From Candidatus Fermentibacterota bacterium (GTDB lineage Bacteria > JAFGKV01): a DNA stretch of 15,400 nt. Where the stretch lies: the NCBI GenBank assembly GCA_016928395.1, contig JAFGKV010000221.1, positions 1 through 15,400 on the forward strand, written 5' to 3'. Below the pieces are notes generated by a model. The model ran no database searches and was not told the DNA's origin. It worked only from the letters and a program-made list of their open reading frames with translations. This document shows positions 1,923-15,306 of the stretch, piece after piece (the first letter of the stretch is position 1; the number at the start of each line of letters is the position of its first letter). The position numbers were made by a program, and so were the translations under genes.

Positions 1923-3299
1923 CTATTCCTGAACCACCAGCCTGCTGAACTGCAGCCGGACTGCCTTCTCGAGGAGGAATACACCATCGGGCGATAGGTA
2001 CGGGATGGCCTCGCCCATCCCTCCTATCGGCGATACGTAGCGCTCTCCAACCGGCCTCGGTACCCACAGAAGCTGCACTCCATCCCCTGACAGGATGGTC
2101 AGGCTCCCCCCCTGCTCCACAATCGCCACGATCTCCCCCTCCCGGCTGGTACCCACTCCCGCAATCCGGGCGCCTGTCCGATACTCCCACAGCAGTCTCC
2201 CGGTGCTAGCCTCTCGTATGTGAACAAGGCGCGCCGCCCGGTACACGGCTACCATTCGCGACCCATCCGCCGACATGACAACCTCGGCGGTCGTGGTCTT
2301 CATCAGCTCCGACGCAACGGTCTTCCCTTGGCTGTCAACCACGTACAATGTACCCCCCGACCGTTCCTCTGGTCCGCCCGTTGCCACGGCAGTGAACACC
2401 GCTCGTGATCCGTCGGGGGATATATCCACGATGCCTCCAAACCCCCCTGTCCCCCCCGGCACCGCCTCACTGGCCCACTTCAGTTCGCCCGACTCGTCGC
2501 ACGCCCGAAGCCCACATGTTCGCCCAAAGTCAACGCGATGATCGTAGGGACCTGCCGCCGTGTGTACCACAAATGTCGATCCATCAGCGGAAAGTGCCGC
2601 CCTCTGAAGGTAGCTGAAGCCATTCCGTTCCACACACTCTCCGGCCTTCCCGCAGAACCAGCCTCTCCGGGCTCCTATCTTCACCACTACTTCCCCATCA
2701 TCCGAAATATGCGACACCACGTCCCCGTACCATTCGTATTCCAAGTGCGTATTGTACGGCCCGAACTCCTTCTCCCAGTAGATCCGCCCTTCCACGTCCA
2801 TGTACACCTCACGCCAGTGGGCCTTCTGCTGCCATTGGGCGTTGAGCCGAGCACTCTTGGCTTCTCCGAACTCCGGCGTCAGCCCTCCCCCGGGCGGTGG
2901 CGCCGGCTCCGGAGGTACCTCCGGCCCCTCGATCCGCATCACTCGCACCAGCCAGTACTTCATGTTCCGCGAGGCGTACACCGTGAAACTCCGCACCTTG
3001 TCCCCAGGTCGAACCGCCGGGATGTCCATCGTCGTCCCGTCATCCAACCACAGCTGCTTGGTCCGGTACGCCGCCCAGTGGCGGATCTGGTTCAGGAGCC
3101 ATTCCTTGTCTTCTTGCGGGATGCTCGTGTCGGCTAGCACCGCCTTGATCTCAGGCGGCGGGAACCCCTCCGCGAACACCTCTTCCCCCTCTCCCGGGGT
3201 CTGCCAGATCTCCTCCAACCGCAGCGGCCACTCTTCCTCCGCGAGCACGGATACCGCTGCCACCATCATGATCCCCGCGACCACCAAACCTGCTCTCAT
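1923..3299 (-). CDS. Secreted beta-propeller-like protein, first gene of the second cassette
   Basis: 458 residues from the ATG at 3299. I chose this start over the upstream in-frame ATG at 3455 because it has a strong AAGGAGGGAG ribosome-binding site and opens a clear signal peptide (MRAGLVVAGI then MMVAAVSVLA, cleavage probably before EEEW). Residues 21-125 form an N-terminal region with a charged helix at 60-80; a proline/glycine linker lies at 128-140. The rest carries repeated S-x-D-G motifs (SADGSTF, SPDGSRA, SADGSRM, SPDGVFL) and W-rich strands ending in short turns, typical of WD40/PQQ-like propeller blades. The exact repeat family and ligand cannot be told from sequence. It lies 10 nt upstream of the M23-type peptidase gene, so the two are probably one transcript and may act together in the periplasm or at the cell surface. 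Confidence 0.8.
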   Translation of the reverse strand: MRAGLVVAGIMMVAAVSVLAEEEWPLRLEEIWQTPGEGEEVFAEGFPPPEIKAVLADTSIPQEDKEWLLNQIRHWAAYRTKQLWLDDGTTMDIPAVRPGDKVRSFTVYASRNMKYWLVRVMRIEGPEVPPEPAPPPGGGLTPEFGEAKSARLNAQWQQKAHWREVYMDVEGRIYWEKEFGPYNTHLEYEWYGDVVSHISDDGEVVVKIGARRGWFCGKAGECVERNGFSYLQRAALSADGSTFVVHTAAGPYDHRVDFGRTCGLRACDESGELKWASEAVPGGTGGFGGIVDISPDGSRAVFTAVATGGPEERSGGTLYVVDSQGKTVASELMKTTTAEVVMSADGSRMVAVYRAARLVHIREASTGRLLWEYRTGARIAGVGTSREGEIVAIVEQGGSLTILSGDGVQLLWVPRPVGERYVSPIGGMGEAIPYLSPDGVFLLEKAVRLQFSRLVVQE

Positions 3300-3328
3300 G
3301 ACTCCCTCCTTGAGTTGTGCAGTTCCCT
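3292..3328 (-). repeat. 37-nt leader/start-region repeat, copy 1
   Basis: This segment holds the ribosome-binding site, start codon and first codons of the 458-residue propeller gene, plus about 29 nt of 5' leader. It matches 5397-5433 at 36 of 37 positions. Both copies sit at the same place relative to the ATG. Further upstream, 3381-3416 matches 5490-5525 at 25 of 36 positions, including a shared GCTTGAC, so the paralogy extends to about -115. Confidence 0.85.
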
Positions 3329-3405
3329 CGTTCATTACCCTTCGTCCAGCACGGACACAATCCGCGCAAGGTGTTCTTGTCGGCAAGCTCGGTTCGCCAT
3401 TGTCT

Positions 3406-3447
3406 GGAGTCAAGCGCCATGCTTGTCCGACCACGGCTCTTGACTCC
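3406..3447 (-). terminator. Strong intergenic hairpin, possible terminator or mRNA-end structure
   Basis: Read on the minus strand, the arm at 3447-3432 (GGAGTCAAG then AGCCGTG) pairs with 3421-3406 (CATGGCG then CTTGACTCC): 16 positions with one A-G mismatch and one G-U pair, around a 10-nt loop. It starts about 24 nt after the stop of the upstream peptidase gene and ends about 107 nt before the next gene. There is no T-run after it, so it is not a classic intrinsic terminator; a processing or stabilising structure is equally possible. Confidence 0.5.
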
Positions 3448-3470
3448 ATCATCAAGTCTACACCCTCCAG

Positions 3471-4466: not shown

Positions 4467-5404
4467 GGCTGCTGCTCCACAGGCTTCCCAGTCTTCAGGT
4501 CACGAAGGAGCACCGTCTGCCCTGATGGGGACAAGGCTGCAAGTACGCCCCCCCCAACCTCCAGCCTCCTGTAGGGCAACCCCTCCAGAGTCTCTTGCCA
4601 GGACAGCTCCCCATCCTGGGAGAGCACTCTTACCCGGTTGCCGCCATCCGGGGGTCCAACCAACGACCCAATCACCACCACGCTGGCGTCGGAATCCACC
4701 TCCAGGATCCTCACCTCCTCATTTCGATACTCCTGTCTCCAGTGGATCACTCCACTCGGACTCACCAGCGCAACTTCCGATAGGCTGCCATGCCCGCACA
4801 CGTTGAACAGGTCAGTTCTCGATACGACAATATCCCTGTCCATCATCTTGATCAAAGCGATTCCACATGGCTCCTCGTCTCCGCACCCGCACCCCTTATC
4901 CGAGAGCCTCACCAGCTTCGACGTGCCGGAGGGAATATCCACAACGATGAACTCGCCCAGACTGCGATACACCACACACAGTGTGTCCGACGACAGCAGC
5001 GCCACCCCGCCAGGATGAAGGCCATGCCAGAGAACGTCCGTCGAAAGCCGTTCGTGGCCCGCCTCGTCGATCAGGAGCAGATGACTCCTCCACGGACCAC
5101 GACCGCCGGCAGTGAACGTATAGGTGAGGGGCAACGGATTGACGAGGATCGTATCTTTGGCCGCATAGTCGAACAGCACCACGACCGCCCCAAAGCCCGG
5201 CTCTGCCAGTCGAATCAGCCTCGGCGTAACACTTGCCGCAAACCCCATCTCCATCCGGAACACCACGCTGTCGCCTCTTATCACCACGATGGTCGTTGAA
5301 TCCTCTACCACCGCTTTCAGCTCGGACCGAGCCGGCGAACTGCCGCCCCAGCCCATCAGGAGCACCATGGCTCCTACCGCACCCATCAACTGCCTTGCTC
5401 TCAT
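4463..5404 (-). CDS. Secreted beta-propeller-like protein, first gene of the first cassette
   Basis: 313 residues, beginning MRARQLMGAVGAMVLLMGWG, a signal peptide probably cleaved near the SSPARS segment. The mature part is almost entirely short hydrophobic beta strands alternating with Gly/Asp turns (for example GEFIVVDIPSG, SPSGVIHWRQ, SQDGELSWQ, SPSGQTVLL), as in WD40 or PQQ-like propellers. It is shorter than the related 458-residue protein and lacks that protein's N-terminal extension. A cysteine group at C172, C174, C180 and C203 could form disulfides or bind a metal. The start is fixed by the AAGGAGGGAG site in the leader shared with the other propeller gene. Its TGA overlaps the ATG of the peptidase gene, so the pair is a bicistron. 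No specific function can be named. Confidence 0.75.
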   Translation of the reverse strand: MRARQLMGAVGAMVLLMGWGGSSPARSELKAVVEDSTTIVVIRGDSVVFRMEMGFAASVTPRLIRLAEPGFGAVVVLFDYAAKDTILVNPLPLTYTFTAGGRGPWRSHLLLIDEAGHERLSTDVLWHGLHPGGVALLSSDTLCVVYRSLGEFIVVDIPSGTSKLVRLSDKGCGCGDEEPCGIALIKMMDRDIVVSRTDLFNVCGHGSLSEVALVSPSGVIHWRQEYRNEEVRILEVDSDASVVVIGSLVGPPDGGNRVRVLSQDGELSWQETLEGLPYRRLEVGGGVLAALSPSGQTVLLRDLKTGKPVEQQP

Positions 5405-5433
5405 GGCTCCCTCCTTGAGTTGTGCAGTTCCCT
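5397..5433 (-). repeat. 37-nt leader/start-region repeat, copy 2
   Basis: Second copy of the start-region repeat (36 of 37 identical to 3292-3328; the only difference is at 5406 against 3301). It includes the ribosome-binding site, ATG and first codons of the 313-residue propeller gene. Such conservation in a non-coding leader, while the proteins have diverged strongly, suggests recent copying, gene conversion or a constrained regulatory role. Confidence 0.85.
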
Positions 5434-5894
5434 GGCATGCCCTATGTCCTCCCGCGGCCCGGGCATACCCCGCCGAATGCTACTTCCTCCGGCAACCAGG
5501 GCTCCCCATCGACTCACGTCAAGCCAAGTCTTGATGATCCCATCCCCCATGTTCTCGACTCATCCCGGCCGAGCCCGCGGCCCATTCCCGGTTCCGCGCG
5601 TCCGTAGGTCGGGGCGACAAACGGACCCGACAAAGCGGGTCTCTCCACCGAAACCATCCCCGCTTGTCGACGCCGGCGTGAAATGTCTCGAAATCGTCGG
5701 TGGAAGGATTCCCTGGCGATCCCCTCGAATCCCTTTGGCCGAAGAAGAGCCATTTCGAAACGGCGTTGACACCCTTGAGCAGCGTGAGTGCGCCCGGCGC
5801 CCGCGGAGGCCCCCTGAACCCTGGCTCCTCACTCCTCACTCCTATCTCGCCCCGGCCTGAACTCTGCGGGATCCTCGCCTGACAGGGCTGTTTC
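5434..5894. other. Intergenic region between divergent transcription units
   Basis: I find no convincing gene here; the open frames lack ribosome-binding sites and recognisable protein character. It holds the paralogous upstream block of the propeller leader (5490-5525), a structured repeat (5629-5727), and a short tandem 7-mer, CTCCTCA twice then CTCCTA, at 5825-5844. A GCTTGACG at 5518-5524 (minus strand) could be a -35 element for the propeller gene, but no matching -10 is visible. Confidence 0.6.
5629..5727 (-). repeat. Structured intergenic repeat, copy 1
   Basis: Read on the minus strand, 5713-5662 aligns with 14895-14946 (plus strand) at 40 of 52 positions without gaps, and weaker similarity extends 14 nt further upstream to 5727. 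The core is TTTCACGCCGG, one variable base, then GTCGACA. The GACA opens a hairpin: 5668-5659 (GACAAGCGGG) pairs with 5639-5629 (CCCGCTTTGTC) with one bulged T and a 19-nt loop. The other copy has an unrelated inner stem at the same place, also closed by GACA/TGTC, as expected for a conserved structure. A competing hairpin, GACCCG with CGGGTC (5624-5641), shares the same bases. Confidence 0.65.
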
Positions 5895-5939
5895 TTGACA
5901 GCTCCGCCGGAGAAGGGTATATAGGATTTGTCCTATATA
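5895..5939 (+). promoter_or_regulatory. Promoter of the padR-receptor operon with a PadR-type operator
   Basis: A consensus -35 TTGACA (5895-5900) and a -10 TATATA (5918-5923) are separated by exactly 17 nt. The -10 lies in a perfect inverted repeat, TATATAGGA (5918-5926), TTTG, TCCTATATA (5931-5939). A third half-site, TCCTATACCC, follows at 5947-5956, and a CTCCG-C-CGGAG dyad (5902-5912) sits between -35 and -10. Protein bound to the 9-4-9 repeat would block polymerase; the adjacent PadR gene is the obvious candidate for autorepression. Confidence 0.75.
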
Positions 5940-5972
5940 TGACACGTCCTATACCCCATCCATGGAGTTGCC

Positions 5973-14739: not shown

Positions 14740-14824
14740 TGCCATCCCCCTCGCCGCGCAGGTCGCCGATTACCTGGCGCGCCACAATCAGCCGTTCGCT
14801 CGCGTGCTGGATCCCGGCGTCTGG

Positions 14825-14842
14825 GCGCAGGCAAGCCTGCGC
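14825..14842 (+). terminator. Short perfect hairpin downstream of the exporter operon
   Basis: GCGCAGGC, AA, GCCTGCGC forms a perfect 8-bp inverted repeat (7 bp with a four-base CAAG loop). It stands 85 nt after the last exporter gene and is symmetric, so it could act on both strands between convergent units. No T-run follows, so intrinsic termination is unproven. The rest of 14740-14880 shows nothing else I can name. Confidence 0.4.
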
Positions 14843-14880
14843 ACTCCATAGCGTGCCGGGTTCCATTTGCCGGAAGAGAT

Positions 14881-14969
14881 CGCGGCGATTCCGAGGGAAC
14901 GCCCTCACCGGCGAGTTCAGTACATTTCACGCCGGTGTCGACACGCCCAGCGCGTACGCTGGATTTGTC
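14881..14969 (+). repeat. Structured intergenic repeat, copy 2
   Basis: 14895-14946 matches the minus strand at 5713-5662 at 40 of 52 positions; similarity continues weakly upstream to 14881. After the TTTCACGCCGG ... GTCGACA core comes a hairpin: GACA (14940-14943) with TGTC (14966-14969) as outer stem, and CCAGCG (14947-14952) with CGCTGG (14957-14962) around a CGTA loop. The inner stem sequence differs entirely from copy 1 while the place and outer pairs are kept. It lies between the convergent exporter operon and hicB. Confidence 0.65.
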
Positions 14970-14982
14970 TGGTTGGGTGCCC

Positions 14983-15306
14983 CTATTTCGCGGCCAGTTC
15001 CAAGGCGTCGTGCACCCACGCATTCAGGCTCTTGTGCTCCTTCTTGGCATGGATCGCGACGGCCATGTGCAACTCGGGTTCGACCCGGACCATGAACTTC
15101 CCGGAATAGGGCTTTTCGGGTGACTCACCACGCTCGGCACAGAACTCAAGGTAGTCATCCACAGAATCCCGGAAGGCCTTGCGCAGTTGCCGCACCGTTG
15201 CCCCCTGGAACGTCACGACATCCCGAAGGTTGATAACCTCGCCATGGAAGATGTCAGCCTCGTCGTCGAACTCGACCTGCCCAATATACCCTTTGTACTC
15301 CATCAT
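14983..15306 (-). CDS. hicB: HicB-family antitoxin
   Basis: 107 residues. The N-terminal part (KGYIGQVEFDDEADIFHGEVINLRDVVTFQGATVRQLRKAFRDSVDDYLEFCAERGESPEKPYSGKF) is the partly degraded RNase-H-like HicB fold, with the characteristic FHGEV, DVVTF and DYLEFC motifs. Residues about 68-107 form a ribbon-helix-helix DNA-binding end (KFMVRVEPELHMAVAIHAKKEHKSLNAWVHDALELA). HicB proteins neutralise the HicA mRNA interferase and repress their own operon. A GAGGTG site lies just upstream and the ATG overlaps the stop of an upstream gene in an ATGA, as expected for a coupled toxin-antitoxin pair. Whether a true HicA lies upstream cannot be seen. The gene runs convergent to the exporter operon. Confidence 0.88.
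   Translation of the reverse strand: MMEYKGYIGQVEFDDEADIFHGEVINLRDVVTFQGATVRQLRKAFRDSVDDYLEFCAERGESPEKPYSGKFMVRVEPELHMAVAIHAKKEHKSLNAWVHDALELAAK

Follow-up and report, generated by a model that had tools for sequence, protein, structure and literature searches.

The window, a 15,400-nucleotide stretch of a draft genome from a Candidatus Fermentibacterota bacterium, carries two intergenic copies of a repeat in opposite orientation. Copy 1 occupies a gap between divergent genes and copy 2 a gap between convergent genes, where it adjoins a HicB gene at 14983-15306. A third copy whose gene context could be placed, on contig C95, lies between co-directional genes; with three gap types among the placed copies, the repeat keeps no constant position with respect to gene ends. 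The features of the two copies and their flanks are as follows.

5629 to 5664, minus strand: first hairpin described earlier, outside the element; its GACA is the element end and the rest is flank, with TGTC in 2 of 17 copies
5665 to 5771, minus strand: copy 1, a complete but internally deleted MITE of 107 bp, both terminal inverted repeats exact to the family pattern
5665 to 5689, plus strand: right-end-type terminal inverted repeat of copy 1, TGTCGACGCCGGCGTGAAATGTCTC, matching the other end at 19 of 25 positions and the family pattern with 0 mismatches
5747 to 5771, minus strand: left-end-type terminal inverted repeat of copy 1, TGTCAACGCCGTTTCGAAATGGCTC, with 0 mismatches to the pattern over 5751-5771
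14824 to 14943, plus strand: copy 2, 5'-truncated (left end missing), corresponding to positions 222-341 of the full element with 89% identity over 120 bp
14825 to 14842, no strand assigned: internal 8-bp palindrome GCGCAGGC-AA-GCCTGCGC, the last in the row of palindromes of full-length copies
14919 to 14943, plus strand: right terminal repeat of copy 2, within 14824 to 14943
14944 to 14972, plus strand: second hairpin described earlier, in the flank of copy 2 and outside the repeat

Two other features lie on either side of copy 1. Two 38-bp stretches, at 3291-3328 and 5396-5433, are 97% identical and sit at the starts of minus-strand genes, where they span the ribosome-binding region and the first codons. 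A dyad, TATAGGATTTGTCCTATA, is found at 5919-5953 upstream of a gene for a PadR-type regulator; a segment of about 35-43 bp that spans or borders the dyad matches several other places in the second genome of the genus, and the dyad is perhaps an operator common to several genes.

The two copies form an inverted pair of 67 nt (5662-5728 and 14880-14946, 75% complementary), the sole inverted pair in the window, and a 22-nt motif from the element end matches the window twice where 0.01 matches are expected. The core that a sequence-only reading of the window had described as common to two regions in opposite orientation is therefore well above chance. The same motif, with up to two mismatches, occurs 10 times in the 4.8-Mb draft genome that contains the window (G000), while a control search with the motif read backwards gives 0 occurrences there. 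That reading had also proposed a search of the host genome and related assemblies, and further copies are indeed present: a 113-nt consensus finds 10 places in G000 and 8 in G001, the second genome of the genus. It finds 0 in G002, the sole other genome searched for the family and phylum. In total, about 18 copies are dispersed across G000 and G001, and their flanks are unrelated. In G031, an unrelated genome, two matches extend over just 26 to 33 bases (E 8e-4) and do not resemble members of the family. A single exact match in the public genome collection, in a Spirochaeta MAG, where an elongation-factor-like gene apparently ends, was set aside as chance. The viral contigs and plasmids searched contain 0 matches, and a literature search for the 11-mers at the element's ends returned unrelated papers only, with no description of the end sequences. 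Among the genomes searched, the MITE family is confined to one genus.

The element is bounded by imperfect terminal inverted repeats of 25 bp (TGTCAACGCCGTTTCGAAATGGCTC at the left end, TGTCGACGCCGGCGTGAAATGTCTC at the right), which are identical at 19 of 25 positions (binomial p ~5e-7) and begin 5'-TGTC(A/G)ACGCCG. A search of G000 with the end pattern identifies 19 ends, against 0 for the reversed pattern. Inward-facing pairs of ends on a single contig are found in G000 at C276 (107 bp, window copy 1), C216 (284 bp), C91 (364 bp), and C95 (491 bp), and in G001 at C369 (341 bp) and C174 (339 bp). These six two-ended copies thus range from 107 to 491 bp, within the 50-500 bp known for MITEs (PMC10969869); several other copies are single-ended. 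The element is GC-rich, and its full-length copies, of about 340 bp, have a variable interior with several palindromes in a row. The ends enclose no conserved gene: a six-frame reading of a full-length copy meets stops in most frames and shows no recognisable protein, and copies differ from one another by large deletions.

Both window copies look old. The minus strand of copy 1 reads TGTCAACGCCG...CGGCGTCGACA and corresponds to just positions 3-37 and 278-341 of a 341-bp full-length relative in G001, so that it has lost about 240 bp from its interior. Near copy 2, a pattern search finds no left-end terminal repeat. A candidate 8-kb composite transposon between ends at C232:44937 and 52932 was rejected, as both copies overlap in element coordinates and are therefore two separate decayed copies.

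Several copies carry traces of insertion. Exact target duplications flank the copies at C95 (CCCGGG, 6 bp) and C369 (CGAGACC, 7 bp). The probability that two random flanks share a perfect 6-9 base repeat is 0.0013 per copy, and the chance of 2 exact duplications in 7 copies is ~4e-5. Four other copies have no visible duplication, including window copy 1, where 3 of 6 flanking bases agree. The copy at C174 sits inside a second repeat with 22-bp inverted ends (GATTCTGCTGA..AACCCCCAT). C330 holds a paralogous copy of this second repeat that is unfilled and 69% identical to the interrupted one, and the alignment of the two passes straight through the insertion point. The alignment scores highest with exactly 6 bases deleted from the right flank (79, versus 71 with none deleted), as a decayed 6-bp target duplication at C174 would predict. 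No orthologous empty site could be shown in G001 for either window copy or for the C95 copy because gene order broke beyond the nearest gene at each tested site; the comparable G001 stretches lack the element.

The second inverted-repeat family is itself found in three places: at C330 (locus L125, ~31104-31293), where it is roughly 160-190 bp long; at C174 of G001 (L147, ~2909-3455), in interrupted form; and at C91 of G000 (L122, ~35759), as one end.

The earlier suggestion that the repeat is dispersed throughout the genome, and perhaps a small mobile element of palindromic type, is supported by the inverted repeats at its ends, the target duplications, the host repeat that one copy interrupts, and the presence of ~18 copies across two genomes. 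We consider it very probable (about 0.9) that the repeat is a MITE family that was mobilised in trans and is now mostly decayed. We infer that the TGTC...GACA ends were the recognition sites of a transposase supplied in trans, which would have excised or copied the element and placed it at a target cut with a 6-7 bp stagger; the varied lengths would stem from later truncation and internal deletion.

The 107-491 bp spread and the several copies with one end only would also be consistent with degraded remnants of a larger gene-carrying transposon or integrated element that lost its middle separately each time. This is unlikely, however, as the two full-length copies of G001 share the same 340-bp anatomy and are 95% identical over that whole length within unrelated flanks, implying that the miniature form itself moved. 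Moreover, no longer two-ended copy was found.

As a MITE family, the element is best compared with the bacterial MITEs Correia/NEMIS, RUP, Chunjie, and QMITE1/2, which are likewise shorter than 500 bp, intergenic, and bounded by terminal inverted repeats, with target duplications that fade with age, a strongly folding transcript, many truncated copies, REP-like truncated derivatives, and nesting in other elements (PMC10969869, PMC2229807). QMITE2 copies without ends, for example, come to resemble REPs (PMC10969869, PMC2229807). The terminal inverted repeats of Correia measure 24 bp, against 25 bp here. MITEs are usually AT-rich (PMC10969869). Whereas the commonest families are TA-ended and AT-rich, the element described here is TGTC-ended and GC-rich, and its GC content counts against the MITE reading. 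It also differs from the known bacterial MITEs in its 6-7 bp duplication and in that no autonomous relative was identified in G000 or G001. We regard it as a new MITE family, apparently undescribed, of an already known and ordinary kind. It adds a MITE family, with one insertion nested in a second family, for a sparsely sampled bacterial lineage, and it aids the annotation of such genomes while raising no new biological question.

The search for a transposase covered the two incomplete draft genomes, in which no autonomous partner with the same ends was found and none of the close end pairs encloses a transposase. Among the proteins near 20 copies, no transposase is present in the 25 of 68 matched families that were listed. 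The IS21 and IS481 families have TG...CA tips and variable short target duplications, which the element appears to recall in its own tips and short variable duplications. An rve-type transposase was considered as the partner, but there is one match in each of G000 and G001 and neither has the element's ends. Both drafts are fragmented, and assemblies of this kind often break at insertion sequences, so the partner may be unassembled, belong to another family, or be extinct.

In 359 kb of sampled DNA, the palindromes of the interior are rare away from element copies, and the close matches to the GCGCAGGC-AA-GCCTGCGC palindrome in that sample sit at element copies. The left arm of this palindrome is lost in C287, C232, and C52, so it is not maintained. 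The row of palindromes in full-length copies could be a selected cargo, for example of sites for protein binding or transcript processing, with the element distributing it to intergenic regions as a mobile regulatory module. We consider this very unlikely. The element shows no sign of a host function.

The sequence-only reading had drawn, as part of the repeat, a hairpin that opens with GACA and closes with TGTC. The hairpin does not belong to it: 17 aligned copies agree up to ...CGCCGGCGTCGACA (GTCGACA) and show no conservation beyond. TGTC follows within the next 45 nt past the element end in 2 of the 17, both of them window copies, where chance predicts about 3 (45/256 per copy), and the hairpin is thus absent from 15 of 17 copies. 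Both hairpins are physically present and fold. As they lie outside the element and TGTC occurs at chance level, their differing inner stems are unrelated flanking DNA and not the covariation-like pattern of a conserved structure. A helix within the conserved end, CACCGGCG with CGCCGGCG, was examined by pair counts: across 17 sequences, 0 of its 8 pairs have both partners altered, so that there are 0 compensatory changes and no support for a conserved fold. Two copies with flanks that pair by chance had mimicked covariation, and the 17-copy sample removed the false reading. The interval first assigned to the repeat, 5629-5727, does overlap the element, but it holds 36 bp of flank and omits 44 bp of element. 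From its end at the hairpin, the element runs in the opposite direction, reaching 5771 (+) in copy 1.

These results bear on whether the repeat is a conserved structured RNA (a 3' UTR, sRNA, or riboswitch) at many loci with a fold under selection. A full-length copy does fold far better than its shuffles (z -4.8), mainly through the internal palindromes and the paired ends; strong transcript folding is, however, expected of any MITE (PMC10969869). With the hairpin missing from most copies, no double change in the conserved-end helix, no Rfam match, no fixed position relative to the placed genes, and internal deletions and truncations that do not restore the fold, a selected RNA is most improbable. 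The suggestion of a transcript-end structure is not supported either, given the rarity of the hairpin and the varied gene context of the placed copies.

A REP/BIME-type repeat spread by RAYT, a Y1 transposase, was considered because five Y1_Tnp genes are present and the element contains REP-like palindromes. REP/BIME repeats resemble the element in being intergenic, palindromic, and mosaic, and G000 has five PF01797 matches, with two of the five RAYT genes amid their own short palindromic repeats. REPs are not known to have terminal inverted repeats or target duplications. Here, in contrast, the element has both and is not beside RAYT genes: in the flanks examined, 0 of 5 RAYT loci carry its ends or the tested internal palindromes, which are moreover rare outside element copies in the sample, making such an origin scarcely credible next to a MITE family. 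The two RAYT-like genes with repeats of their own, which occur in the same genome as the element, are at L031 (G000:C207) and L032 (G000:C117); the palindromic repeats around them are GTAGGGGAGGG..GTGCCCTCCC and TGTAGGAGCGGCGTCAGCCGCGAA.

Toxin-antitoxin genes adjoin several copies of the element, at 14983-15306 in the window and at loci L044, L009, and L027. A MazF/PemK-like toxin is encoded near the copy at C149, and, judged from sequence only, a putative AbrB-like antitoxin is encoded at C216 and a putative antitoxin-like protein at C323 of G001. A further dispersed repeat, the third, measures up to ~220 nt; it is located at ~2076-2295 of C174 in G001 (L147) and has matches of 73-85% identity in at least 7 contigs of G000, at C310, C130, C47 (two places), C335, C23, C248, and C280.
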